Source: Pseudomonas sp. St316 (lineage in GTDB: Bacteria; Pseudomonadota; Gammaproteobacteria; Pseudomonadales; Pseudomonadaceae). Taken from it: DNA of 64,000 nt. The stretch lies in contig NZ_AP021901.1 in the NCBI RefSeq assembly GCF_018325905.1, forward strand, positions 5,642,001-5,706,000, given 5' to 3'. The first letter of the stretch is position 1, and the number at the start of each line of letters is the position of its first letter. The translations under genes and the position numbers were made by a program. Shown piece by piece: positions 27,071 through 40,906 of this stretch. The notes beneath the pieces are model-generated. The model searched no databases. It was not told where the DNA came from and was given only the letters and a program-made list of their open reading frames with translations.

Positions 27071-28798
27071 TCAGGCGGCTACTGTACGTTCCACCAGCTG
27101 GCCATTTTCGATACGCACATGTCGCGGATGGAAACGTTTCAAACTGCTCCGATGGCCGACGCTGACGATGCTCAGGCCCGGCAACTGATCGATCAGTGCC
27201 TGGTACAGCGTTGCTTCGTCTTCTTCATCCATCGCCGACGTGGCTTCGTCCATGTACAACCATTGCGGTGCATAAAGCAATGCGCGGGCAAAGGCCAGGC
27301 GTTGTTGCTCGCCGGGCGAGAGCATGCGCTGCCAATGGTTGCTTTCATCCAGCCGCGCAATCAGGTGCGGCAGGCGGCAGGTTTCCAGCACCTGGGCATA
27401 ACGTTCGTTGGGATAGATATCGCCAGCCTGTGGATAACTCAATACCTCACGCAGGCTGCCAATCGGCAGATAAGGCTTCTGCGGCAGGAACAGATAACGC
27501 GCGGCGGGAAGCCGGATCGTCCCGTGCCCCGCCGGCCACAAATGCCCCATCGCCCGCAGCAGGGTCGATTTGCCACTGCCCGAACGGCCACTGAGCATCA
27601 CCCGTTCGCCCGGTTCCACGGTCATGTCGGCGTTATCGAGCAGATGGCGACCGTCGGCCAGGTCCAGCCCCAAGTGATGCACCTTCAATTCATCGCCCTG
27701 GTTCTGCACGTCGATGGCCGGCACGCGGTCTTCATTGTCGCTCATGGCCTGGCGGAAACTCAGCAGACGGTCGCAGGTGGCGCGCCACGCGGCGAGGTCG
27801 GCATAAGCGCTGATGAACCAGCTGAAGTTCTCCTGCACGTTGCCGAACGCCGAGTTGATCTGCATGAGCTCGCCCAGTTGGATCTTGCCGGCGAAGTAGC
27901 GCGGCGCGGCGACGATGAACGGGAAGATGATCGCGATCTGGCCATAGCCGGAGGTGAAGAACGTCAGGCGCTTGGACACTCGCATGATGTCCCAGAAGTT
28001 ATGCCAGACCAGGCCGAAACGCCCGCTCAGGCGACGGTTCTCGTTCGGTTCGCCGTTGTACAGCGCAATGCTCTCGGCGTTTTCACGCACCCGTACCATG
28101 GAGAAACGCAGGTCGGCTTCGAAGCGTTGCTGGTTGTTGTTCAGACCGATCAGGCGTCGGCCGATCAGGTGCGTCAGCCAACTGCCCACCGCCGCATACA
28201 CCAGCGCGCACCAGAACATGTAGCCGGGGATGGTGTAGCCGAACACTTCGATGCTGCCCGACACGCCCCACAAAATAATCGAGAACGACACCAGGCTGAC
28301 CACGGTGCGCAGCAATCCCAAGCCCAGGCTCAGGGTGTTGGTGGTGAAACTGTTGAGGTCTTCGGAAATCCGCTGGTCCGGGTTATCGGTATAACCACCC
28401 TGCTCCAGCCGGTAGTAATTCTTGTCGTTGAGCCAACGGGCAAAGTGTTGCTCGGTGAGCCAGGCCCGCCAGCGAATGGTGAGCATCTGCGTGAGGTACA
28501 AGCGGTAGACCGCGCCGAGGATCGCCACCGCCGCGATGCCGCAAAAATACAGGATCAACTGCCAGAACGCCGCGCTGTCCTTCTCTTGCAGGGCGTTGTA
28601 GAAATCCTTGTACCAACTGTTGATCCACACCGAGATCGCCACGCTGAACAGCGAGAGTGCGATGACGGCAATCAACAGCGTCCAGGCCTTGCCCTTCTCC
28701 TCACTGCGCCAGTACGGCGTGGTCATTTGCCAGACACGGCGGAAAAACTGTCCGCGCACCGTGTCATTGACCGCGGAATATTCAGCGTTCTGATTCAT
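27071..28798 (-). CDS. SbmA/YddA-type ABC exporter, fused permease-ATPase
   Basis: 575 residues. The first roughly 330 form an SbmA/BacA-like membrane domain (about six helices, with the typical 'GYTDNPDQRISEDLNSFT' loop). The rest is an ABC ATPase: Walker A GRSGSGKST, Q-loop 'LFLPQKPYLP', signature LSPGEQQR, Walker B 'WLYMDEATSAMDEE' and H-loop SVGHRS. Relatives take up peptide antibiotics or long-chain compounds, and some help peroxisome-like fatty acyl transport. The substrate here is unknown. It is a single gene with its own promoter region. Confidence 0.92.
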   Translation of the reverse strand: MNQNAEYSAVNDTVRGQFFRRVWQMTTPYWRSEEKGKAWTLLIAVIALSLFSVAISVWINSWYKDFYNALQEKDSAAFWQLILYFCGIAAVAILGAVYRLYLTQMLTIRWRAWLTEQHFARWLNDKNYYRLEQGGYTDNPDQRISEDLNSFTTNTLSLGLGLLRTVVSLVSFSIILWGVSGSIEVFGYTIPGYMFWCALVYAAVGSWLTHLIGRRLIGLNNNQQRFEADLRFSMVRVRENAESIALYNGEPNENRRLSGRFGLVWHNFWDIMRVSKRLTFFTSGYGQIAIIFPFIVAAPRYFAGKIQLGELMQINSAFGNVQENFSWFISAYADLAAWRATCDRLLSFRQAMSDNEDRVPAIDVQNQGDELKVHHLGLDLADGRHLLDNADMTVEPGERVMLSGRSGSGKSTLLRAMGHLWPAGHGTIRLPAARYLFLPQKPYLPIGSLREVLSYPQAGDIYPNERYAQVLETCRLPHLIARLDESNHWQRMLSPGEQQRLAFARALLYAPQWLYMDEATSAMDEEDEATLYQALIDQLPGLSIVSVGHRSSLKRFHPRHVRIENGQLVERTVAA

Positions 28799-28894
28799 GG
28801 TTAAGGCTCTATAAAGAAAAGAACAGACTCGGGCCGATCATAGAGCAACGGCCCGATGTGTCGCGAGGGTGGACAACACCTGTTCAGCGCAGGT

Positions 28895-29455
28895 TCAGCG
28901 ACGCACGGGACGCTTTTGCAATTTGCGCTGCAAAGTCCGCCGGTGCATGCCCAAGGCGCGGGCCGTGGCGGAGATATTGCCTTCGTGCTCGGTCAGCACC
29001 CGCTGGATGTGCTCCCATTGCAGGCGATCCACCGACATGGGGTTTTCCGGCACCAGGGTGTCGAGGTCAGCGTGCTCGGACAACAGCGCCGCCAGCACGT
29101 CATCGGCATCCGCCGGTTTGCACAGGTAATTGCAGGCTCCGCGCTTGATGGCCTCGACCGCGGTGGCGATGCTCGAATAGCCGGTGAGGATCACCACGCG
29201 CATCTCCGGGTCCAGCTCCAGCAACTTGGGCAGCAGCACCAGGCCCGAATCGCCGTCCATCTTCAGATCCAGGGCGGCGTAGTCCGGCAGGTCGGCCTGG
29301 GCGATGGTCAAGCCTTCTTCGGCGGAACCTGCGGTGCTCACGCGAAAGCCACGACGGGACATTGCCCGGGCCATCACGCGGGTGAACGTGGCGTCGTCAT
29401 CCACCAGCAACAGGTGCGGCAGTTCTTCGCCGTCGACTTGGATCTCGTCACTCAT
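28895..29455 (-). CDS. roxR: Redox response regulator RoxR (RegA/ActR family)
   Basis: 186 residues: a receiver domain with the phosphoacceptor Asp63 (YAALDLKMDG) and a short C-terminal Fis-type helix-turn-helix ('NISATARALGMHRRTLQRK'), exactly the RegA/PrrA/ActR layout. In Pseudomonas, RoxR controls cyanide-insensitive oxidase and other respiration genes in response to respiratory inhibition. It overlaps roxS by 4 bp. Confidence 0.94.
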   Translation of the reverse strand: MSDEIQVDGEELPHLLLVDDDATFTRVMARAMSRRGFRVSTAGSAEEGLTIAQADLPDYAALDLKMDGDSGLVLLPKLLELDPEMRVVILTGYSSIATAVEAIKRGACNYLCKPADADDVLAALLSEHADLDTLVPENPMSVDRLQWEHIQRVLTEHEGNISATARALGMHRRTLQRKLQKRPVRR

Positions 29456-30711
29456 GTTTCGTCTCCTCGGTCGGCATGGGGCAGGCGCAGCTCGGTGAGC
29501 GTGCCGCCTTCCTCATGGGGGTAGAGTTTCACCGAGCCGCCGGCGCGTGTCACGCTGGCTTTGCTCAAAAACAGGCCCAGGCCGAAACCTTTGCCCTTGG
29601 TGGTGTAAAACGGTTTGCCGATCTGCTCGGCAATCGCCAGCGGCACACCGGCGCCGTGGTCGCGAATGCTGATGGTCAGCTCATAGGCGTTCCAGTCCAG
29701 CGCCACTTCCAGCCCTTCGGGGCAGGCATCGGCGGCGTTGTTCAGCAGGTTCAGCAACGCCTGGGTCAAGTCCGGCGGCGGCGCCATGCGCGGCACCGGG
29801 CCTTGCCCCAGGCGCTGGAAGCGATAACTGGCTTCCGGACGCATCAGGTGCCAGCGGTTCAGGGCCTCGTCGAGCCAGTCGGTGACGTCCTGCATGTCGA
29901 TGGCCAACCGGCGATTGGCCTCGGCGGCGCGCACCAGGTATTGCAGGGTTTCCTTGCACAGCTTGACCTGATCCTGCAACACGCTGAGGTCCTCTTGCAG
30001 TGCCGGGTCGTGGTGATCCTGGCGCATCTCCTTGAGCAGCACGCTCATGGTCGCCAGTGGCGTACCCAACTCGTGGGCAGCACCGGCGGCCTGGGTCGCC
30101 ACGGCCAGCAATTGCTCGTCGCGCAGCCCCTCCTCACGGCGGATGGCCCGCAGTTCTTCCTGGCGGCGCAACTCCTCGGCCATGCGCGCGGCAAAAAACG
30201 TGATGACCGCCGCAGCCAGGGCGAAGCTCAGCCACATGCCGTAGATCTGCAGGTTTTCCCGGGCGATGGGGAAGGTTTCCAGCGGGTAGAACCGCGCCAG
30301 CAGCAAGGTGTACAGCGCCAGGGCAATGCCGGAAAGAATCAGCGAAAAACGCCACGGCAACGTCACGGCGGCGATGGTCAGCGGCACCAGGTAATAGGAG
30401 ACGAAGGGGTTGGTGGAGCCGCCGGAGAAATACAGCAATGCGCTGTGGATAAACAGGTCGCAGGCCAGCTGTACCGCATATTCGAGCTCGGTCACCGGCC
30501 ACGAGGTGCGCAGGCGAATCGCCGTCAGCGCGCACAGCACGCTGGAACAGGCCAAGGTGATCGCAAGTTGCAGCCAGGGCAGCGGCAGCAGATCGAACCA
30601 ATAGGCGAGCCCCACCGAGCCGGCCTGGGCAGCCAGGACCAGGATGCGGATGAATGTCAGGCGCCAGAGGTTCTGGCGAGAGGCGGAAGTCAATTGCAAA
30701 GGGGCGAGCAT
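29452..30711 (-). CDS. roxS: Redox sensor histidine kinase RoxS (RegB/PrrB family)
   Basis: 419 residues from the ATG at 30711 (MLAPLQLTSASRQNLWR). There are six N-terminal transmembrane helices, with the quinone-binding motif GGSTNPF at residues 97-103 as in RegB. The H-box has His213 (GAAHELGTPLATM), and the kinase core shows 'RDHGAGVPLAIAEQIGKPF' and 'GKGFGLGLFLSKAS'. No clear RegB-type redox cysteine is seen in the H-box linker. It forms a two-gene operon with roxR. Confidence 0.94.
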   Translation of the reverse strand: MLAPLQLTSASRQNLWRLTFIRILVLAAQAGSVGLAYWFDLLPLPWLQLAITLACSSVLCALTAIRLRTSWPVTELEYAVQLACDLFIHSALLYFSGGSTNPFVSYYLVPLTIAAVTLPWRFSLILSGIALALYTLLLARFYPLETFPIARENLQIYGMWLSFALAAAVITFFAARMAEELRRQEELRAIRREEGLRDEQLLAVATQAAGAAHELGTPLATMSVLLKEMRQDHHDPALQEDLSVLQDQVKLCKETLQYLVRAAEANRRLAIDMQDVTDWLDEALNRWHLMRPEASYRFQRLGQGPVPRMAPPPDLTQALLNLLNNAADACPEGLEVALDWNAYELTISIRDHGAGVPLAIAEQIGKPFYTTKGKGFGLGLFLSKASVTRAGGSVKLYPHEEGGTLTELRLPHADRGDET

Positions 30712-31096
30712 GAGCTCTCCTGATGAGCGCTCCAGGCGAATCGCACGGAGTATAACCAAGGCGCGGGTTGCACAGGCAGATATGCGGCAAAGCGCCACAG
30801 CCTTGGAGGCTGCCTATCCCCTTGCTCCCGCTGGACGGCGCGTAGGAGCTGCCGAAGGCTGCGATCTTTTGATCTTTCGCTCACGACTCAAGTAGCCGGA
30901 ACAAGATCGCAGCCTCGTTGCACTCGACAGCTCCTACGACGCAGTCCAGCGCAAGCAAGCTCCCTCGCCACAGAAAACCCATCTCCGGGCAATCTGTATA
31001 GAAGTTGTAACTGTGCGAACCCGCCCATAAAAGCTAGAGTCTTATCGTTCACGCAGGCCCGGACCTTATCCCTGCGCCTCATCCCAAGGAGCTTTC
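30712..31096. other. Intergenic gap holding a second type of dispersed repeat
   Basis: 385 bp between divergent roxS and the SIMPL gene. It carries the CGTAGGAGCTGCCGAAGGCT...AGCTCCTACG inverted repeat described separately and a short REP-like CTCCCTCGCCACAG at 30961. The promoter of the SIMPL gene must lie in the last 120 bp; TTGTAAC followed by TAGAGT is visible around 31003-31040 but the spacing is imperfect. Confidence 0.5.
30841..30938. repeat. Inverted dispersed repeat (CGTAGGAGCT type)
   Basis: CGTAGGAGCT at 30841 and AGCTCCTACG at 30929 flank GGCTGCGATCTTTTGATC and its partial complement GATCGCAGCC. This is a different family from the GTGGGAGC REPs and is also common between genes of fluorescent pseudomonads. 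Confidence 0.75.
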
Positions 31097-31813
31097 ATGC
31101 ACACGTTCAGTCGCCCCGCTGCCCTACTCGCCCTCAGCCTCGGCACCGTCGCCAGCCTGCCGGCCCTGGCCGCCGATGAGCTGCACTACAACCAGATCTC
31201 CCTGCGCGCCGAAGCCAGCCAGGAAGTCGCCCGCGACCTGATGATCGTCACCCTCTACACCGAGGAACAGAACACCGACCCGGCCAAACTCGCCGCAGCC
31301 GTCAGCACCACGCTGAACAAAGCCATCGGCCAGGCCAAAGAGGTCAAGGACATCAGCCTGCGCCAGGGCAGCCGCAACAGCTACCCGGTCTACGACAATA
31401 AAGGCGGGAAAATCACCGGCTGGCGCGAACGCGCCGAACTGCGCCTGGAAAGCGCCGACTTCGCCGCCCTGTCCAAACTCACCGGCGAACTGTTGGGTGA
31501 CATGAAAATGGGCGGCATGGACTTCGCCATCGCCACTGCCACCCGCCAAAGCAGCGAAGACGCCCTGCTCAAGGACGCCGTCAACGCCTTCAAGGCCCGC
31601 GCCCAACTGGCCACCGACGCCCTGGGCGGCAAGGGTTACAAGATCGTCAACCTGAACTTCAACACCAACGGTTATCCACAACCCTACATGCGCGCACCGA
31701 TGATGATGAAAGGCGCGTCCATGGATGCCGAGTCGGTGACGCCGGAAGTCGAAGCGGGCACCAGCAAGGTGACCATGACGGCGGATGGGGCGATTGAGGT
31801 GTTGATGCAGTAA
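31097..31813 (+). CDS. SIMPL-domain periplasmic protein (DUF541)
   Basis: 238 residues with a signal peptide (MHTFSRPAALLALSLGTVA... cleaved after PALAA, about residue 23) and a SIMPL/DUF541 domain: 'YNQISLRAEASQEVARDLM', 'GYKIVNLNFNTNGYPQPYM' and the C-terminal 'EAGTSKVTMTADGAIEVL'. Related proteins (BP26, YggE) form periplasmic oligomeric channels or reduce oxidative stress; the function here is not known. A GGAG ribosome binding site lies 8 bases before the ATG. Confidence 0.9.
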   Translation: MHTFSRPAALLALSLGTVASLPALAADELHYNQISLRAEASQEVARDLMIVTLYTEEQNTDPAKLAAAVSTTLNKAIGQAKEVKDISLRQGSRNSYPVYDNKGGKITGWRERAELRLESADFAALSKLTGELLGDMKMGGMDFAIATATRQSSEDALLKDAVNAFKARAQLATDALGGKGYKIVNLNFNTNGYPQPYMRAPMMMKGASMDAESVTPEVEAGTSKVTMTADGAIEVLMQ

Positions 31814-31818
31814 CCCGC

Positions 31819-31851
31819 CTGATCATTCCCACGCGAAGCGCGGGAATGATC
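31819..31851. terminator. Bidirectional hairpin between convergent genes
   Basis: Perfect 11-bp arms TGATCATTCCC and GGGAATGATCA surround ACGCGAAGCGC, which itself can pair. It lies 6 bp after the SIMPL gene and 19 bp after the oppositely oriented small gene, so it can terminate both despite the lack of a long T-run. Confidence 0.6.
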
Positions 31852-31869
31852 AAACTGCCTGCTTCGTTT

Positions 31870-32118
31870 TTACTTCAGCAAAGGCATCGCCGCCTGCGCG
31901 AGTTTGGTGAGCAACTCAATATCACGCCCATCGCGTGCGCCATCCTCGTTTAAATCAGTTTTTATACCCACCTTGTCGTAGCGCCCGTCCTTCAAAGAGG
32001 AAGATACAAACGTATCGAGGTAACACTGCTCGTCCCGAAAAAATTTGAGCCGAACCTCAGGGCTTTCATCACGATCAAGATCTTTAAGTGATATGCGGAT
32101 TTCGTTGGCGGCCATCAT
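31870..32118 (-). CDS. Small protein with an EF-hand/dockerin-like loop
   Basis: 82 residues, start ATG at 32118 preceded by GAGG; no signal peptide. I do not recognise the family. Residues 55-66 read DLNEDGARDGRD, with Asp/Asn at calcium-loop positions 1, 3, 5 and 12 and Gly at 6, followed by hydrophobics (IELL), as in dockerin and EF-hand loops. A second acidic stretch (13-17, DLDRD) is weaker. A calcium-binding role is inferred from this motif only. It is convergent with the SIMPL gene and divergent from the HTH-NTase-PP2C cassette. Confidence 0.7.
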   Translation of the reverse strand: MMAANEIRISLKDLDRDESPEVRLKFFRDEQCYLDTFVSSSLKDGRYDKVGIKTDLNEDGARDGRDIELLTKLAQAAMPLLK

Positions 32119-32483
32119 CGAACCTCATCCGTTAAGTCAGATTGGTACGGCATCGCTGCTTTGAATAAAGCACGTCCGTATCCAGCATCCTAACCACGCT
32201 TGCCAGACCGTCTACTGTCAGGGTTGACAGGTGGATGCCCATACAGACCGAACCTCTCAAACCTGCGAGGAGAAACCCGTGGCGAGGGGATTTAGCGAAA
32301 CGTCGTGCCCCCGCTGGGCTGCACAGCAGATCCAAACCTGACTCTTTGCGCTGCTTATGGGGCTGCTGCGCGGCCCAACGGGAGCTTCTTCGCGTCCCAA
32401 CGAAAGCCTCTTCAGAACGAACTCTAAAAATAATATTTGACAGTATAAAAAACAGCGCGCAAAACTTGTCCACGCTTTATGGA
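32119..32483. other. Intergenic gap with degenerate REP-like sequence and cassette promoter
   Basis: 365 bp. About 32278-32400 is a decayed copy of the GTGGCGAGGG...GGGAGC repeat type (CCCCGCTGGGCTGCACAGCAG and GCTGCGCGGCCCAACGGGAG). The last 80 bp are much more A/T-rich, with TTGACA at about 32437, and probably drive the downstream cassette; no good -10 box can be named. Confidence 0.5.
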
Positions 32484-33265
32484 ATGTGGACAGAAAGAGA
32501 TTTTGCCTTAGTGAAAAGTCAAGATATTTTACTCATGTACAAAATGGCCAGCCTTCACGCGCAGGAAGAGTTGTCTCCGACAGGCAGCCAGACCGTGGCC
32601 TGGGGCGGCTTATCCCAGATTGACTTGCTCCCGGACGACTACAGTCCCGAACCAAAATTGATCACTTCCCCTGCGCCTGACAAATCCTGGGACAACTTGG
32701 AGGTCGCCATAAAACGCATCATCGACGCAGACTCGTTCCTGTGGGAGGGCTGGGACACTGACGATGATCCCCCCACAAAAAGACCGCAGCCAAGTGGGAG
32801 GACCGCTACACCCTCAGAGCCCTGGCGGAGTCATTGGGCTTGAGCAAAAGCGAGATATCGAACTCGATCACCCGGTGCCGAGAGGCTGGACTGATAACAA
32901 ACGACTATGAAACCTCCCTGCCCAAAGTGAATCGCCTGGCGCTTTTAAAGATCACCGAGCACGCGCTGAAGTACTTTTTCCCCGTCAAGCCGGGTGCCCT
33001 GGCACGAGGGATTCCCACAGGCTTCGCATCACCGGTGCTATCCAAACACCTTAGAAGCGCCGGGGGAAATATCCACGTTTGGCCCGATCCACAAGGCACG
33101 GAGCGTGGCCAGACCATCGAACCCATTTACAAGACAGTCCCCGAGGCCGTGAAGAACGATCGAACCCTTTATCACTACTTAGCCTTGGTTGACTCGATAC
33201 GGCTGGGCGGACCTCGCGAGACCAGCGTCGCCATTCAGCTTCTTAAAAAAGGCATGGGCCTTTGA
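32484..33265 (+). pseudogene. HTH regulator/antitoxin-like protein, one frameshift
   Basis: Two frames make one protein of about 260 residues. The first starts MWTERDFALVKSQDILLMYK (ATG 32484). The second supplies 'YTLRALAESLGLSKSEISNS' (winged-helix recognition segment) followed by 'RCREAGLITNDY', 'GALARGIPTGFASPVL' and 'VWPDPQGTERGQTIEPIY'. The frames join if one base is added in the C6 run at 32769-32774 or the following A5 run. N-terminal 'decision' residues plus an HTH resemble AbiEi-type and MarR-like partners of nucleotidyltransferase toxins. It overlaps the next gene by 4 bp. Broken gene or assembly error; function inferred. Confidence 0.72.
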
Positions 33266-33966
33266 GTGTTGCCGCCGATCACAATTACGAGATGTTGAAT
33301 GCCGTCGCGCAGGGATTGGGCGACGAGCTTTTAAAGGAAGTCGCTTTCGTTGGCGGCTCTACCACCTGGCTTCTGTGCACTGACGACATTGTGCTGGATG
33401 ATATCCGCAGCACTGACGACGTTGACCTGGTCATTGAGCTAGGTGGCATTGCTGACTGGCAAAGACTGACAGAACGCTTGGCCGACAAGGGCTTCAAGAT
33501 TACCGCCGAGTACAGCGATGTAACGTGCCGGTTCAAGTTCAACGATGTGATTGTCGACGTGATGCCCTCCGTGAAGGAGGTACTCGGCTATGAAAACCGC
33601 TGGTTTGTGGATGGCCTGGCGAACGCAGACACCTTCACACTGCCCAGCGGGATTGTGATCAAAATTTTCAAACCCGCCTACTTCGTCGCGACAAAACTCG
33701 AAGCGTTCAAAGGCCGTGGTAACGGCGATGCCTACCATAAAGATGTCGAGGATATCGTTCTCGCTGTAGACGGCCGGGAGAGCTTGCGAGAGGAGGTTAG
33801 CCAGGCAGATCAGGCGTTGCGAACGTATATTGCGGCCGGCATCACCGGGCTGCTGGCACTCGATTCCCTGGACTATGTAATACAAAGCTTCCATTCCGTC
33901 AGTGCGAACCCGGGCCGAGACAAACTGATTTATCAGCGCCTGAAACAACTGGGCAACATCAAATGA
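33262..33966 (+). CDS. AbiEii-like nucleotidyltransferase
   Basis: 234 residues starting at a TTG whose last bases overlap the upstream TGA stop. It shows the nucleotidyltransferase fold of AbiEii/AbiGii toxins: GGS at 31-33, R49-x-T51-x-D53-V-D55 as the paired metal-binding acids, a third Asp99 (VIVDVMP), then Lys145 (ATKLEAFKGRG) and 'HKDVEDIVLAVDGRE' (Lys160, Asp161, Asp164). In AbiE systems this enzyme transfers nucleotides to tRNA or a protein and stops growth. Its partners here are an HTH protein upstream and a phosphatase downstream. Confidence 0.85.
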   Translation: MSVAADHNYEMLNAVAQGLGDELLKEVAFVGGSTTWLLCTDDIVLDDIRSTDDVDLVIELGGIADWQRLTERLADKGFKITAEYSDVTCRFKFNDVIVDVMPSVKEVLGYENRWFVDGLANADTFTLPSGIVIKIFKPAYFVATKLEAFKGRGNGDAYHKDVEDIVLAVDGRESLREEVSQADQALRTYIAAGITGLLALDSLDYVIQSFHSVSANPGRDKLIYQRLKQLGNIK

Positions 33967-34643
33967 TTTACTCAGCCAGGTCTGTCAAAGGGCGGGCAAG
34001 CGATGAAAACCGAGACGGTGTAGGAGCAAGGTTCGACGGAGCACGAGGACTATTTGTCATCGTAGACGGCACCTCAAGACCAGGCAGTGGCCCGCTCGCA
34101 CAGGCGCTGGTCGACCAAATACTCACACTATATTGCGAGAAAGTCGTGCTGGGCTGTTCGGATAATAGCCATGAAAAAGCGGCGGCGTTACTCAAGGAGG
34201 TATTGAATGATGCACACGACCGGCTCTTTTCGACAGCCTTCACAGGGTCGGCGAGCTACCTGGTCGGTGTAGCCGCTACTGGACTTCTCACAATCGCTTA
34301 CGAGGGCGACTGTTGCGCTGGCGTGGCTTTTTCAAACAGCACGATCACCTGGCTCACAACACCTCACTGCCTTGCCAACTGGAAACGCGATCGTGACCAC
34401 CGACAACTGGCAGCAGATCCAGGTCGGCATCGGATAAGCCGGTGTTTCAATGCACGGAATAAACCAGATCCCGAAATAGTCACAAAAACGATCATTAATG
34501 GTGAAAAACTGGTTTTTGCGACCGATGGCTTTTGGGCTGACTTAAATCATGTAACACAGGCCCAGTTGCTGGAAGTCGAGACGCTTGACCTTATCCTTGC
34601 CGATGATGACGTTTCCTGGATAGTCGTGCAGATCCCGGCCTAG
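33963..34643 (+). CDS. Divergent PP2C-type protein phosphatase
   Basis: 226 residues, start ATG overlapping the nucleotidyltransferase stop (ATGA). PP2C motifs are recognisable in order: 'GRASDENRDG' (Asp14), 'FVIVDGTSRPG' (Asp35, Gly36, in place of DGMGG), 'FTGSASYLVGVA' (95-104), 'EGDCCAG' (Asp116), 'LVFATDGFWADL' (Asp188) and DDD at 214-216 before 'VSWIVVQI'. The metal-coordinating aspartates seem retained, so it is probably active on phosphoserine/threonine or a related bond. It lacks transmembrane or other domains, and no kinase is encoded nearby. Confidence 0.8.
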   Translation: MIYSARSVKGRASDENRDGVGARFDGARGLFVIVDGTSRPGSGPLAQALVDQILTLYCEKVVLGCSDNSHEKAAALLKEVLNDAHDRLFSTAFTGSASYLVGVAATGLLTIAYEGDCCAGVAFSNSTITWLTTPHCLANWKRDRDHRQLAADPGRHRISRCFNARNKPDPEIVTKTIINGEKLVFATDGFWADLNHVTQAQLLEVETLDLILADDDVSWIVVQIPA

Positions 34644-34684
34644 CAGTCATCTCTTTAGGCTCGCTTCCACAATTGGATCAGGGT

Positions 34685-35016
34685 ACGACCGGGAGAACCA
34701 GGCCGGCTGTCAGGCCGCCTCGCGAGCAAGCTTTGCTCCCACAGATCTGATGGGTGTAAGACCGGGAGAGCCAGGTCGGCTATCAGGCCGCCTCGCGAGC
34801 AAGCTTTGCTCCCACAGATCTGATGGGTGTACGACCGGGAGAGCCAGGTCGGCTGTCAGGCCGCCTCGCGAGCAAGCTTTGCTCCCACAGATCTGATGGG
34901 TGTACGACCGGGAGAACCAGGTCGGCTATCAGGCCGCCTCGCGAGCAAGCTTTGCTCCCACAGATCTGATGGGTGTACGACCGGGAGAGCCAGGTCGGCT
35001 ATCAGGCCGCCTCGCG
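34685..35016. repeat. 73-bp tandem repeat array
   Basis: The block ACGACCGGGAGA...GATCTGATGGGTGT repeats with an exact 73-base period: the ACCGGGAGA marker lies at 34688, 34761, 34834, 34907 and 34980. Each unit contains one REP (GCGAGCAAGCTTTGCTCCC) and units differ by only a few bases (AGAACC/AGAGCC, GGCTGT/GGCTAT). Confidence 0.92.
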
Positions 35017-35286
35017 GTGGACGTTGATCTCGGGCGCCCCGTTAACCACGCTGGCCGAACGCAGGCATTGTGGAGTGGGCATCCCGGCATGGATGCCGGG
35101 ATAGCCGCGCTGGGCCATGGATGGCCCTTCGCGGCGGGCCCACGGAGCAATGCCTTCGTTCGGGCACACCGAGCCTAGGCGAGGTGCCGAGTGGTGGGGC
35201 AAAAGCGCTTTGGTTACTTTCGCGCTTTTCGAAAGTGACCCGCCGTCAGGGCGGAACCCTAAGTGGCCGTTACCGCAGCAATGGAT
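35017..35286. repeat. Dispersed intergenic element interrupting the array
   Basis: A roughly 270-bp block with nested inverted repeats: TCCCGGCATGGATGCCGGGA, GGCCATGGATGGCC, and AAAGCGCTTTGGTTACTTTC opposite CGCGCTTTTCGAAAGTGACC. From memory, similar blocks recur between genes of many Pseudomonas genomes; no transposase is present. AGGCCGCCTCGCG borders it on the left (35004-35016) and recurs at 35322-35334. Confidence 0.65.
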
Positions 35287-35405
35287 ATGTACCCGGTCAA
35301 CAAAAACCCTGGCCGGATGTAAGGCCGCCTCGCGAGCAAGCTTTGCTCCCACAGACCTGACAGATGTACGGCAGGGAGAGACAGGCCGACTATAAGGCCG
35401 CCTCG
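35287..35405. repeat. Continuation of the 73-bp array
   Basis: A degenerate unit (ATGTACCCGG...GGCCGGATGT) and a near-standard unit follow the dispersed element; AAGGCCGCCTCG occurs at 35321 and again at 35394, again 73 bases apart. Confidence 0.8.
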
Positions 35406-35516
35406 TCCAAAGAGGTATACCCAAACCCGACAGTCCTCCTCACTTTTCGATATTTCCAACACCCCCACCCACAACGCTACTCTCCTGAAAAACCGTCACC
35501 ACCCCCAAGGGATTTC

Positions 35517-37118
35517 ATGGACAGAACCACCTTCAAACCTCTGCTACTCACCCTCGCCCTGATCAGCAGCGCACCAATGGCTCAGGCCGCCACCACCCTG
35601 GTCTACTGCTCCGAAGCCAGCCCCGCCGGGTTCGACCCCAGCCAATACACCAGCGGCACCGACTTCGACGCCTCGGCCGAAACCGTCTTCAACCGCCTCA
35701 CCCAATTCAAGCGCGGCGGCACCGAAGTCGAGCCGGGGCTGGCGACGAGCTGGGATGTGTCCACCGACGGCCTGGCCTACACCTTTCACCTGCGCGACGG
35801 CGTGAAATTCCACACCACCGACTATTTCACCCCCACCCGCGAGTTCAACGCCGACGACGTACTGTTCACCTTCCAACGCCTGCTCGACCCGCAACACCCG
35901 TTCCGCCAGGCCTACCCCACCGAGTCGCCCTACTTCACCGACATGGGCCTGAACACCACGATCAAAAACGTCGAGAAAGTCGACGAACACACCGTGCGCT
36001 TCAACCTGAACAACGTCGACGCGGCTTTCGTGCAGAACCTGGCGATGAGCTTTGCCTCCGTACAGTCCGCCGAATACGCGGCGCAGTTGCTCAAGGAAGG
36101 CAAGGCCGGCGACCTCAACCAGAAACCCGTCGGCACCGGGCCGTTCGTGTTCAAGCGCTACCAGAAGGACTCGCAGATCCGCTACGCCGCCAACACCGCG
36201 TACTGGAAACCCGAGGACGTGAAGCTCGATAACCTGATCTTCTCGATCACCCCGGACGCCGCCGTGCGCCTGCAAAAGCTCAAGCGTGGCGAATGCCAGG
36301 TCAGTGGCTACCCACGCCCGGCCGACATCGAGGTGATCGAGCAAGACCCCAACCTGCAAGTGCTCAAGCAGCCCGGTTTCAACCTGGGCTTCTTGGCCTA
36401 CAACGTCACGCACCCGCCCTTGGATCAGCTCAAGGTCCGCCAGGCGCTGGACATGGCCATCGACAAGCCTGCGATCATCAAGGCCGTGTACCAGAGCGCC
36501 GGACAACTGGCACAGAACGCCTTGCCGCCGGCCCAGTGGTCGTTCGACCCGACCATCCAGGACGCGCCCCACGACGTGACCAAAGCCAAGGCGCTACTGA
36601 AGGAGGCCGGAGTTGCGCCCGGTACAACCATCAATTTATGGGCGATGACAGTGCAGCGCGCCTCCAACCCCAATGCGCGAATGTCTGCACAGATGATCCA
36701 GCAGGATTGGGCCAAGATCGGGATCAAGGCCAACATCGTCAGCTATGAATGGGGCGAGTACATCAAGCGTGCAAAAAATGGCGAACATGATGCAATGATT
36801 TACGGCTGGACCGGCGACAACGGCGACCCCGACAACTGGCTGGGTGTGCTGTACAGCTGCGCGGCGGTCAAGGGCAGCAACTACGCCAAGTGGTGCGACC
36901 CGGCGTATGACCGCTTGATTCAGCAGGCCAAAGTCTCGACAGACCGCCAGAAACGGATCGATTTGTACCAACAAGCGCAGAAAATCCTCAAGCAACAAGT
37001 GCCGATCACGCCGATCGCCAACTCCACGGTATTCCAGCCGATAAACAAGCAAGTGGTGGACTTCAAACTCAGCCCATTCGGCCTCACACCCTTCTACGGC
37101 GTGGGTTTGAAGAAGTAG
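35517..37118 (+). CDS. Periplasmic peptide-binding protein (DppA-like, paralogue 1)
   Basis: 533 residues from the ATG at 35517, with a signal peptide ending at AQA about residue 24 (MDRTTFKPLLLTLALISSAP...). It is a family 5 extracellular solute-binding protein: 'LVYCSEASPAGFDPSQYTSG', 'ETVFNRLTQFKRGGTEVEPG' and 'PVGTGPFVFKRYQKDSQIRY'. It should deliver di/tripeptides or similar ligands to the DppBCDF permease encoded downstream. It is the first of four paralogues in this locus, each with its own upstream region. Confidence 0.92.
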   Translation: MDRTTFKPLLLTLALISSAPMAQAATTLVYCSEASPAGFDPSQYTSGTDFDASAETVFNRLTQFKRGGTEVEPGLATSWDVSTDGLAYTFHLRDGVKFHTTDYFTPTREFNADDVLFTFQRLLDPQHPFRQAYPTESPYFTDMGLNTTIKNVEKVDEHTVRFNLNNVDAAFVQNLAMSFASVQSAEYAAQLLKEGKAGDLNQKPVGTGPFVFKRYQKDSQIRYAANTAYWKPEDVKLDNLIFSITPDAAVRLQKLKRGECQVSGYPRPADIEVIEQDPNLQVLKQPGFNLGFLAYNVTHPPLDQLKVRQALDMAIDKPAIIKAVYQSAGQLAQNALPPAQWSFDPTIQDAPHDVTKAKALLKEAGVAPGTTINLWAMTVQRASNPNARMSAQMIQQDWAKIGIKANIVSYEWGEYIKRAKNGEHDAMIYGWTGDNGDPDNWLGVLYSCAAVKGSNYAKWCDPAYDRLIQQAKVSTDRQKRIDLYQQAQKILKQQVPITPIANSTVFQPINKQVVDFKLSPFGLTPFYGVGLKK

Positions 37119-37373
37119 CACCCGCCCATTTCCGGTGCATTGCGGTCGCGCAGCGCACCGGGAAAGGGCGCTATTTGCCCCGAAAAAACACGCGCAAACG
37201 ATCAAATGCGCCAGAAGTTACACAGATGCGACATTAAGGTACGTTCGTGCCACTGTTTCGGACTTGTGACCGCTCTGGATCTTGCATTGGGTATGGGGCC
37301 TGCATAAGTATCCGCAGGACGACTCACGAGGTCGCCCTCAAATCCAAAAATGACAACAAATCATGAGGCCAAC

Positions 37374-38999
37374 ATGCTTAAACAAGCGGTCATTCCGTTT
37401 TTAGTCGGCGCAAGCTTATTAGCCAGCGCACCTTTCGCCCAAGCCGCGACTAACCTGGTGTTCTGCTCCGAAGGGAGCCCGGCCGGTTTTGACCCTGGTC
37501 AGTACACCACCGGAACCGACTTCGACGCCTCTGCAGAGACCATGTTCAACCGCCTGACCCAGTTCGAACGTGGCGGCACCGCCGTGATTCCTGGCCTGGC
37601 GACCAAGTGGGATATTTCCGAAGACGGCCTGACCTACACCTTCCATCTGCGTGAAGGCGTCAAGTTCCATACCACCCCGTACTTCAAGCCGACCCGCGAA
37701 TTCAACGCCGACGACGTGCTGTTCACCTTCAACCGGATGATCAACAAGGACGACCCGTTCCGTAAGGCCTACCCGACCGAATTCCCGTACTTCACCGACA
37801 TGGGGATGGACACCAACATCACCAAGATCGATAAAGTCGACGACCACACCGTCAAGTTCACCCTCAAGGACGTCGACGCCGCGTTCATCCAGAACATGGC
37901 CATGAGCTTCGCCTCGATCCAGTCCGCCGAATACGCCGCCCAGTTGCTCAAGGAAGGCAAGGCCCCCGACATCAACCAGAAGCCAGTCGGCACCGGCCCG
38001 TTCGTGTTCAAGAGCTACCAGAAAGACTCCAACATCCGCTACACCGGCAACAAGGACTACTGGAAGCCTGACGACGTGAAGATCGACAACCTGATCTTCG
38101 CCATCACCACCGACCCGTCGGTGCGCATGCAGAAACTCAAGAAAAACGAATGCCAGATCACCCTCTTCCCACGCCCGGCCGACCTCAAGGCCCTGAAGGA
38201 AGACAAAGCGCTGAAGATGCCTGACCAGGCGGGTTTCAACCTGGGCTACATCGCCTACAACGTGATGGACAAGATCAAGGGCAGCAACGAGCCTAACGTG
38301 CTGGCCAACCTGAAAGTCCGCCAGGCGCTGGACATGGCGGTCAACAAGCCGCAGATCATCGATTCGGTCTACCAGGGCGCCGGCCAGCTGGCCGTCAACG
38401 CCATGCCGCCGACCCAGTGGTCCTACGACACCACCATCAAGGACGCCAAGTACGATCCTGAGAAAGCCAAGGAGCTGCTCAAGGAAGCCGGCGTCAAGGA
38501 AGGCACCAACATCACCCTGTGGGCGATGCCGGTCCAGCGTCCGTACAACCCGAACGCCAAGCTGATGGCCGAGATGCTGCAGTCCGACTGGAAGAAGATC
38601 GGCCTGAACGTCAACATCGTCAGCTACGAATGGGGCGAGTACATCAAGCGTTCCAAAGGCGGCGAGAACCAGGCGATGATCATCGGCTGGAGCGGTGACA
38701 ACGGTGACCCGGACAACTGGCTCAACGTGCTGTTCGGCTGCGACTCGCTGGCCGGCAACAACTTCTCCAAATGGTGCGACAAGAAGTTCGACGGCCTGGT
38801 CAAGGAAGCCAAGCGCACCACCGACCAGTCCAAGCGCACCGAACTGTACAAACAGGCACAACACGTCCTCAAGGATGCCGTGCCAATGACACCTATCGCT
38901 CACTCGACGGTGTATCAACCCATGCGCGCCAACGTGCAGGATTTCAAGATCAGCCCCTTTGGCTTGAACTCCTTCTACGGCGTCAGCGTCAGCAAATAA
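37374..38999 (+). CDS. Periplasmic peptide-binding protein (DppA-like, paralogue 2)
   Basis: 541 residues from the ATG at 37374 (MLKQAVIPFLVGASLLASAP), chosen over the in-frame 37350 because GAGG lies before it and the signal peptide then starts normally. Family 5 binding protein, close to paralogues 1 and 3: 'LVFCSEGSPAGFDPGQYTTG', 'FVFKSYQKDSNIRYTGNKDY' and 'GYIAYNVMDKIKGSNEPNVL', where an extra loop distinguishes it. Dense, highly biased codon usage suggests strong expression. Confidence 0.92.
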   Translation: MLKQAVIPFLVGASLLASAPFAQAATNLVFCSEGSPAGFDPGQYTTGTDFDASAETMFNRLTQFERGGTAVIPGLATKWDISEDGLTYTFHLREGVKFHTTPYFKPTREFNADDVLFTFNRMINKDDPFRKAYPTEFPYFTDMGMDTNITKIDKVDDHTVKFTLKDVDAAFIQNMAMSFASIQSAEYAAQLLKEGKAPDINQKPVGTGPFVFKSYQKDSNIRYTGNKDYWKPDDVKIDNLIFAITTDPSVRMQKLKKNECQITLFPRPADLKALKEDKALKMPDQAGFNLGYIAYNVMDKIKGSNEPNVLANLKVRQALDMAVNKPQIIDSVYQGAGQLAVNAMPPTQWSYDTTIKDAKYDPEKAKELLKEAGVKEGTNITLWAMPVQRPYNPNAKLMAEMLQSDWKKIGLNVNIVSYEWGEYIKRSKGGENQAMIIGWSGDNGDPDNWLNVLFGCDSLAGNNFSKWCDKKFDGLVKEAKRTTDQSKRTELYKQAQHVLKDAVPMTPIAHSTVYQPMRANVQDFKISPFGLNSFYGVSVSK

Positions 39000-39304
39000 A
39001 GATAGGCAACGGCGGCGTGTTCAACGTCGCCGTTGCTGTATCTGCCGAGACCAAGACTCAGGAAATCGCCTACCTCCAAAAACACTGCGTACCACAGCAG
39101 TTGGTTTAGGACGTATCGCCTTTTCCCACAAGTCTTTCAGGCATTACGCATTTACCGCCTGGTCCACGACTCATACCGTCGGGCCTGGACGGCTTGCCAG
39201 CCCTGCGGCATCGCTACGCAATGGAATGAGCTCAGTGCTCCGGACCTGTCCACGGGAGGACACCGGTTCACTGTTAAAACACCCCGAACGAGAGAGGGAG
39301 CGTC
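39000..39304. other. Intergenic gap between binding-protein genes
   Basis: 305 bp. It opens with a hairpin GCAACGGCG...CGCCGTTGC (39007-39036) that can end the upstream transcript. Nothing else is recognised apart from GAGAGGGAGCGTC, the ribosome binding region of the next gene. Confidence 0.6.
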
Positions 39305-40906
39305 ATGCGCCATACCTTGGTTTTTTCCGCATTGCTGGGCACCGGCCTGTTGGCCGCGACGTCTGTGGCCGAGGCCGCCGCCGGCAGCCTGGTATTTTGT
39401 TCCGAAGGCAGCCCTGCCGGTTTCGACACCGCGCAATACACCACGGCCACCGACAACGATGCCGCCGAGCCGCTGTACAACCGCCTGGCCGAGTTTGAAA
39501 AAGGCGCGACCAATGTCGTCCCAGGCCTGGCGACCCGTTGGGACATTTCCGAAGACGGCCTGAAGTACACGTTTCACCTGCGCGAAGGCGTGAAGTTTCA
39601 TACCACCGACTACTTCACACCGACCCGGGATTTCAACGCCGACGACGTGCTGTTCACCTTCAACCGCATGCTCGATCCGCAGCACCCGTTCCGCAAGGCC
39701 TACCCTACCGAGTTCCCGTACTTCAACGGCATGAGCCTGAACAAGAACATCGCCAAGGTGGAAGCGACCGGGCCGTTGACCGTGGTCATGACCCTCAACA
39801 GCGTGGACGCCGCGTTCATCCAGAACATCGCCATGAGTTTCGCCGCCATCCTGTCGGCCGAATACGCCGACCAGCTGCTCAAGAGCGGCAAGCCGAGCGA
39901 CATCAACCAGAAGCCGATCGGCACCGGGCCGTTCGAGTTCAAGAGCTACCAGAAAGACTCCAACATCCGCTACGTCGCCAATAAGCAGTACTGGGCGCCG
40001 GAGCGGGTCAAGCTGGATAACCTGATTTTCTCCATCAACACCGATGCGTCGGTGCGGGTGCAGAAGCTCAAGGCCAACGAATGCCAGGTCACCCTGCATC
40101 CGCGTCCGGCGGACGTACCGGCCTTGAAGAACGACCCCAAGCTGCAGTTGATCGAGAAGCCCGGTTTCAATCTGGGCTACATCGCCTATAACACCCGCCA
40201 CAAGCCATTCGACCAGGTCGAAGTGCGCCAGGCGCTGGACATGGCGGTGAACAAGCAAAGCATCCTCAATGCCGTGTACCAGGGCGCGGGACAACTGGCG
40301 GTCAACGCCATGCCGCCGACCCAGTGGTCCTATGACGACACGATCAAGGACACCGCCTACAACCCGGAAAAGGCCAAAGAGCTGCTCAAGGCCGCCGGGG
40401 TCAAGGAAGGCACCGAAATCACCCTCTGGGCCATGCCCGTACAGCGTCCGTACAACCCCAACGCCAAGCTGATGGCCGAGATGCTCCAGGCCGACTGGGC
40501 GAAGATCGGCCTGAAGGTGAAGATCGTCAGCTACGAATGGGGCGAGTACATCAAGCGCACCAAGAACGGCGAGCACGACATCAGCCTGATCGGCTGGACC
40601 GGCGACAACGGCGACCCGGACAACTGGCTGGGCACGCTGTACAGCTGCGACGCCATTGGCGGCAACAACTACTCCATGTGGTGTGACCAGGATTACGACA
40701 AGCTGATCAAGCAGGCCAAGGTCGTCACCGACCGCGACCAGCGCACCGTGCTCTACAAACAGGCCCAGCAGTTGCTCAAGCAGCAAGTGCCGATCACCCC
40801 TGTTGCCCACTCGACGGTCAACCAGCCGCTGAGTGCCAAAGTCGAAGGGTTCAAGGTCAGCCCCTTCGGTCGTAACGTGTTCTCGGGCGTCAGCCTGAAC
40901 CCATAA
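39305..40906 (+). CDS. Periplasmic peptide-binding protein (DppA-like, paralogue 3)
   Basis: 533 residues with a signal peptide ending AEA (about residue 24). Family 5 solute-binding protein with 'LVFCSEGSPAGFDTAQYTTA', 'IGTGPFEFKSYQKDSNIRYV' and 'TGDNGDPDNWLGTLYSCDAI'. Paralogue 2 is its closest relative in the window. It directly precedes the OprD-family porin gene; in P. aeruginosa, as I remember the order, dppA3 stands before opdP. Confidence 0.92.
   Translation: MRHTLVFSALLGTGLLAATSVAEAAAGSLVFCSEGSPAGFDTAQYTTATDNDAAEPLYNRLAEFEKGATNVVPGLATRWDISEDGLKYTFHLREGVKFHTTDYFTPTRDFNADDVLFTFNRMLDPQHPFRKAYPTEFPYFNGMSLNKNIAKVEATGPLTVVMTLNSVDAAFIQNIAMSFAAILSAEYADQLLKSGKPSDINQKPIGTGPFEFKSYQKDSNIRYVANKQYWAPERVKLDNLIFSINTDASVRVQKLKANECQVTLHPRPADVPALKNDPKLQLIEKPGFNLGYIAYNTRHKPFDQVEVRQALDMAVNKQSILNAVYQGAGQLAVNAMPPTQWSYDDTIKDTAYNPEKAKELLKAAGVKEGTEITLWAMPVQRPYNPNAKLMAEMLQADWAKIGLKVKIVSYEWGEYIKRTKNGEHDISLIGWTGDNGDPDNWLGTLYSCDAIGGNNYSMWCDQDYDKLIKQAKVVTDRDQRTVLYKQAQQLLKQQVPITPVAHSTVNQPLSAKVEGFKVSPFGRNVFSGVSLNP

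Follow-up and report, generated by a model that had tools for sequence, protein, structure and literature searches.

A PDC-M21 cassette in Pseudomonas sp. St316 joins an AbiE/MenT-like module to a PP2C phosphatase that may reactivate the toxin

Introduction

Bacterial toxins built on a nucleotidyltransferase (NTase) fold provide the closest described counterparts to the locus analysed here, a cassette of three genes, A, B and C, in a 64,000-nucleotide stretch of Pseudomonas sp. St316 (contig NZ_AP021901.1, positions 5,642,001 to 5,706,000; hereafter the window, whose internal coordinates we use throughout). AbiE, in which a helix-turn-helix (HTH) gene precedes a gene for a DUF1814-type NTase, has been described as fourth in abundance among phage defence systems (PMC11375011). 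The toxin MenT1 autophosphorylates Thr39, two residues ahead of Asp41, upon antitoxin binding, and the active-site Ser/Thr is strictly kept in the MenT relatives retrieved by the authors of that study (PMC11375011). TglT (MenT3) is likewise inactive when phosphorylated, at Ser78 of its motif 2 (R76, S78, D80, D82); degradation of the antitoxin cannot reverse this modification and a phosphatase is needed, which was postulated and left unidentified, full dephosphorylation by PstP took 12 h, and the reactivation of phosphorylated NTase toxins is printed as an open question (PMC7205606). A different solution is found in KKP (PfkA-PfkB-PfpC), a three-gene, phosphorylation-based toxin–antitoxin system with a PP2C phosphatase and the nearest tested PP2C-containing defence system of this type among the matches listed in our literature search (PMC11341870).

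The cassette in the window shares with MenAT the NTase fold with R-x-S/T-x-D-x-D, whereas no relation of its first gene to MenA1 or MenA3 was detected, and it holds a phosphatase gene, while in the accessible text on MenAT and TglT-TakA no linked phosphatase gene is named, one being postulated (PMC7205606). Like AbiE it has an HTH gene and then an NTase gene, to which gene C is added as an extra third. From KKP it differs in having an NTase where KKP uses Ser/Thr kinases as toxins, in having no further ORF (open reading frame) where KKP has two kinases beside the phosphatase, and in the predicted sign of the phosphatase, which is opposite (PMC11341870).

All three proteins of the window match, in the same order, the A, B and C models of PDC-M21, a candidate of PADLOC-DB 2.0.0, except that M21A is split here and not one intact gene. 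The original prediction, made by a model from the letters of the window, had known of no described system with this exact composition, and these catalogue entries overturn that view. PDC-M21 presumably goes back to Payne et al. 2024 (doi 10.1101/2024.01.29.577857). PDCs are described as unvalidated 'guilt-by-embedding' candidates (PMC12988326). Our search for 'PDC-M21' returned no papers, preprints lying outside its coverage and few subscription papers within it; with the same few subscription papers and no bioRxiv coverage, none of the matches listed was a paper that describes or tests PDC-M21, or that reports a phosphatase linked to an NTase toxin. The composition is thus already catalogued, and what we add is a mechanism that is unproven and that we regard as a strong, testable lead. 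We are confident that PDC-M21 is an AbiE/MenT-like module with an active-type PP2C. Our preferred reading goes further and is held tentatively: the cassette may be an autoregulated toxin–antitoxin-type abortive-infection module with both a writer and an eraser.

Results

The cassette comprises the following features.

32511..32843, forward strand: N-terminal piece of gene A (PDC-M21A, winged HTH), beginning with the GTG to which relatives align; homology stops at about 32768 and the frame at a stop at 32843.
32769..32833, forward strand: stretch over which A drops out of the frame that intact relatives keep, by comparison with G160, the closest relative examined, and with profiles.
32834..33265, forward strand: C-terminal piece of gene A, 143 amino acids (aa), with a possible TTG start; PDC-M21A E 2.9e-64, from the recognition helix onward and including the C-terminal domain.
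33262..33966, forward strand: gene B (PDC-M21B), a MenT/AbiEii-type NTase of 234 aa; codons of T51 at 33412-33414, D53 at 33418-33420 and D55 at 33424-33426.
33963..34643, forward strand: gene C (PDC-M21C), a PP2C Ser/Thr phosphatase of 226 aa; PADLOC E 7e-64, codon of D188 at 34524-34526.

Genes B and C are each one open ORF, and overlaps of four bases join A to B (33262-33265) and B to C (33963-33966), as had been noted before. Two plasmid copies have these overlaps as well, so chance does not explain them; the one between B and C suggests coupled translation.

Gene B contains GGS at residues 31-33 followed by R49-x-T51-x-D53-x-D55, and the core and the D53/D55 numbering read earlier from the sequence are thereby confirmed. 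The R49-x-T51-x-D53-x-D55 motif and the catalytic Lys/Asp are kept in all of 80 loci, the best 80 of 307 from a profile search of genome contigs, a set that leans to Pseudomonas. The PDC-M21B model matches residues 1-232 of the window protein (E 1.2e-91), and a fold search, in which chains absent from the listing were not counted as excluded, showed that B folds like the toxins MenT1 and MenT3. We equate T51 with T39 of MenT1 and S78 of MenT3 by motif spacing and overall fold, not by residue-by-residue superposition. In two loci (L126 and L140) B is interrupted by a stop.

For AbiE proper the model searches gave mixed results. Pfam AbiEii (PF08843) matches neither the window B nor anything else in a search across the window genome; at E <= 0.01 it matches 20 of 37 aligned B members, with a best value of 2.4e-6, and each of the PADLOC AbiEii models matches at most six of the 37. 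Relatives of A have a winged HTH according to fold searches, which probed mainly that domain, and a PDB sequence search with A gave weak HTH-type matches and WhiA, nothing more; no AbiEi model came up when 38 A members were compared with Pfam (E <= 0.01). Of the earlier assignment to AbiE, the MenT/AbiEii-type fold of B and the winged HTH of the A relatives therefore stand, while these matches do not establish membership in AbiE proper. A Pfam match of B to SgrA_ig-like was taken as chance.

For gene C, the family profile matches the Stp1 structure 2pk0 (E 3.8e-13), the PP2C metal-binding aspartates are kept in 57-59 of 60 members, and PP2C_2 is matched by 21 of 27 members at E <= 0.001. The window protein alone falls below the cut-off with both Pfam (E 0.011) and NCBIfam Stp1 (1.2e-5). 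Its metal aspartates, including the numbering of D188, are as first predicted. In 3 of the 60 loci with C the gene is broken while A and B are open; loci in which C appears split or fragmentary beside open A and B are L067, L094, L104 and L132.

Gene A is not the intact HTH gene that had been assumed. The interval 32484-33265 has 782 bases, a number not divisible by three, and the region consists of two ORFs in different frames (32235-32843 and 32834-33265), with positions 1-40 of the PDC-M21A profile on the first and 62-202 on the second; a profile built from intact A relatives places the frame switch near 32774-32777. In G160, whose B is 93% identical, A is a single ORF of 266 aa with B and C in the same order, and in 79 of the 80 further loci (all but L136) a single ORF covers most of the A model. 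A programmed frameshift was rejected, since relatives read A through in one frame, and a Pfam match of the first ORF to Noelin-1 was taken as chance. No second copy of A was found in the window genome, which is a single contig of 6.78 Mb.

Comparison of the window with G160 gave nonsynonymous over synonymous divergences (dN/dS) of 0.025/0.36 (~0.07) and 0.019/0.46 (~0.04) for the two halves of A, 0.035/0.38 (~0.09) for B and 0.069/0.34 (~0.21) for C. Because both halves of A are under strong purifying selection, the break is either recent or an assembly error, and the window cassette, with A in two pieces, is probably impaired or misassembled. That this copy is dead or dying is a possibility we give some weight to without favouring it, and it would be compatible with any other reading of the cassette: the frame of A is lost within 32769-32833, whereas the selection on both halves points to a late event or an error, and the C-terminal piece could still be translated.

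As to distribution, 34 of the 199 genomes sampled from the genus, the window genome included, and 30 of 398 from the phylum contain a relative of B; the PADLOC B model matches in 33 of 396 phylum genomes and in one of 14 control genomes (Corynebacterium glutamicum). A adjoins B in 80 of the 80 loci and C is matched in 60. Among the 20 without a match, the contig runs out 132-665 bases past B in L131, L135 and L136, and a C-like remnant of 111 aa is left in L132, so that clear absences of C number 16 of 80. In the genus sample (the best 30 of 36 places) A is present in 30 of 30 and C in 26 of 30; in the phylum sample, where C was scored within 1.5 kb, the figures are 30 of 30 and 6 of 30. Both samples have flanks of 1.5 kb, some reaching contig ends, and overlap with the 80 loci and with each other in genomes; the window belongs to both. 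On a tree of B with 81 rows, the presence of C changes seven times, or four times without L131, L135, L136 and L132. From these linkage counts, A and B form the core and C is a variable third gene. The original prediction was to be refuted if the three genes rarely co-occurred; close relatives usually carry all three, whereas in the phylum sample C lies within 1.5 kb in a minority of loci.

Eighteen of the 80 cassettes are embedded in a type I restriction-modification operon, with hsdR on one side and hsdM on the other, eight of them with C and ten without (in one, L134, hsdM is cut by the contig end). Outside these, models for hsdR, hsdM or hsdS matched in 1 of 62 loci, as a fragment in L104, some flanks being short. 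In L117 (12584-15873) an A-B pair without C is followed by two reverse-transcriptase genes, the cassette of L102 lies beside a CHAT-domain gene and that of L138 beside an Eco57I-type methylase. Many of the remaining copies stand alone, often at recurring chromosomal sites, and their typed recurrent neighbours are transport and membrane genes; defence families were not scanned for there. At one such kind of site, flanked by a VirJ-domain gene on one side and a K+ transporter on the other, the arrangement is either a standalone A-B-C or hsdR-A-B-C-hsdM-hsdS (L121, L122 and L125 versus L063, L066, L070 and others), and hsdR of L121 is in two pieces. A relative of B is present in 115 of 72,556 plasmid records, 12 of them from Pseudomonas, and two Pseudomonas plasmids have the full cassette, annotated as a MarR regulator, a hypothetical protein and a serine/threonine phosphatase. 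None of 50,697 phage records contained a B relative, and the 12 pattern matches from a scan of a viral collection were not confirmed.

Two candidate control elements precede A.

32437..32442, forward strand: TTGACA, putative -35 element of the cassette promoter.
32467..32492, no strand assigned: palindrome TGTCCAC-N12-GTGGACA, putative operator bound by A.

Both emerged when the sequences ahead of A were compared across the window, G160 and 76 of the 80 loci (78 regions), and not from a generic sigma-70 scan, which returned no site in 32100-34900 with 1.6 expected by chance. TTGAC lies at -90 to -60 of the A start in 71 of the 78 regions, at -74 in 42 of them. The pattern TGTCC-N12-18-GGACA lies at -45 to -37 in 57, with 60 matches in total across 1.42 Mb of loci, and perfect inverted repeats of at least 7 bases occur in 59 of the 78 as opposed to 142 of 780 random segments. 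The operator of the window has exactly one site in its genome. A start at ATG 32484, as formerly proposed, would fall within this operator, and relatives align to the GTG at 32511 instead. Most of the restriction-embedded loci that lack C fall among the 21 regions without the exact palindrome; an apparent link between loss of the operator and loss of C follows clades. With a single palindromic operator before A, autorepression by A would fit.

The surroundings of the cassette in the window include the following.

31870-32118, reverse strand: 82-aa gene without a match above cut-off in family model searches.
34683-35016: tandem array after the cassette, 73-bp unit, 4.6 copies, 96% matches; related repeats lie at the same site in some relatives.
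35049-35169, forward strand: TwoAYGGAY RNA (RF01731), downstream of cassette and array; Rfam, 61.8 bits with a gathering score of 43.
35514-40906: three SBP_bac_5 paralogues in a row (533-549 aa), of the dipeptide-binding type.

Around the cassette, the interval from 27071 to 40906 holds genes for an ABC transporter, a two-component pair (response regulator and histidine kinase) and a SIMPL protein, the 82-aa gene and the three SBP_bac_5 proteins. The defence scan of the window, limited to this interval, gave no convincing match among them; PADLOC matches to mad3/mad8 (ABC protein) and SduA/RtcR (response regulator) were taken as shared domains. Here the isolation of the cassette between a small gene and repeats, as previously described, is upheld. 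The cassette has a G+C content of 54.1% compared with 61.5% for the window, the lowest-G+C stretch of 2,160 bases in the 64 kb starts at 32401, and the block common to the window and G160 begins at about 32409. We compared 15 regions of the site, from G160 (selected because it bears the cassette) and 14 close SIMPL relatives: in 14 of the 15 the interval after the SIMPL gene, which measures 26 bases to ~3 kb to the nearest binding-protein match, has no cassette, G160 being the exception. Among these regions (L171-L185) a DDE transposase is found in L177 and an IS110-type transposase in L182, and several have a small gene beginning MDKLIPDPP or similar. Given the variable interval, the lack of the cassette in 14 of 15 and the ordinary neighbours, the window cassette looks like an insertion at a variable site and not part of a local defence island.

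Discussion

Starting from the gene anatomy, folds, motifs and operator observed here, together with the linkage of A and B, the variable presence of C and the association with restriction-modification operons, we infer the following scheme. The winged HTH protein A would repress the operon at its single palindromic operator and would also bind B, which may block translation, probably through nucleotide addition to tRNA 3' ends. B bound by A would phosphorylate its own active-site Thr51 and thereby be switched off, and C, made from the same overlapping message, would strip the phosphate from Thr51 and switch B on. The state of B would then hinge on a steady supply of A, and it is C that would make it so. 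Infection that halts the synthesis of A or titrates it would leave C to activate B, and growth would stop; a phage shutting down host gene expression would cut the supply of A in just this way. That the cassette serves phage defence is, on our inference, probable. For C itself, the role of a phosphatase that reactivates B is proposed by analogy with the MenT toxins, and we lean towards it with reserve; the "reversal arm" of the original prediction thus survives as our preferred reading, now with T51 as target residue, at that same tentative strength. Loci with open A and B that have lost C, or have it in broken form, fit an activator or modulator better than an antitoxin.

Several observations weigh against this scheme. 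MenT4 was not found phosphorylated (PMC11375011), and phosphorylation is therefore not universal in the MenT fold. T51 is equally invariant in loci without C, so that its conservation is not tied to C, and C is exceptional outside close relatives. The phosphatase of KKP works with the opposite sign (PMC11341870). None of the 38 A members matched an AbiEi/MenA family model, and the C-terminal domain of A is without a demonstrable fold match. In the window, purifying selection acts on B and C, both intact, yet A is broken and no second copy of it was found; this is hard to square with A as the sole antitoxin and leaves B with no obvious one, unless the C-terminal piece of A is enough. L026 is a second genome in which A is cut short close to its end and B and C stay open.

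Alternatively, C could be active on another substrate (A itself, a subunit of a restriction-modification system, or a protein of the host or a phage), with A-B as an ordinary AbiE-like pair. We consider this unlikely, although it is favoured by the patchy presence of C across the family (60 of 80 loci and 6 of 30 in the phylum sample), by its presence in 8 of 18 restriction-embedded copies and by the independence of T51 conservation from C. The overlap of B and C, with the coupled translation that it suggests, speaks against it, and the near confinement of hsd genes to the 18 embedded loci (the fragment in L104 and some short flanks considered) means that a restriction subunit is not the general substrate of C.

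Less probable still, the cassette could be an addiction module of plasmids or genomic islands rather than a phage defence. The 115 plasmid records, the ordinary chromosomal neighbours at the window and the transport and membrane genes beside typed standalone copies, where defence families were not scanned for, would agree with such a role; the 18 loci inside restriction-modification operons, and one locus each beside two reverse-transcriptase genes, a CHAT protein and an Eco57I-type methylase, argue for defence, and the absence from phage records is neutral. Finally, a polarity as in KKP, where the PP2C PfpC is the antitoxin and is inhibited by phage Gp59 (PMC11341870), so that dephosphorylation by C would hold the system off until a phage protein inhibits C, is the least credible alternative, because KKP requires two Ser/Thr kinases while a crude regex for the Hanks-type motif found none in the ORFs of the 80 loci, because 16 of 80 loci clearly lack C and 3 of 60 have a broken C beside open A and B, losses that would scarcely be tolerated if C were a necessary antitoxin, and because MenT1 and MenT3 are inactivated by phosphorylation (PMC7205606, PMC11375011).

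If the preferred reading, in which C reactivates B, is correct, PDC-M21 may be the first toxin–antitoxin family with a built-in eraser, C being a dedicated PP2C that reverses the active-site phosphorylation of a MenT/AbiEii-type toxin, a claim that we put forward with slightly more caution than the role of C itself. What has appeared as a covalent safety lock would become a fast two-way switch, and C would supply, for the PDC-M21 family, the kind of phosphatase postulated in the TglT-TakA work. A natural operon of an NTase and a PP2C phosphatase lets the question of toxin reactivation be tested with purified proteins. If true, the scheme would also provide a mechanism for a catalogued yet unexplained defence candidate, the NTase gene of which is carried by 34 of 199 sampled genomes of the genus.
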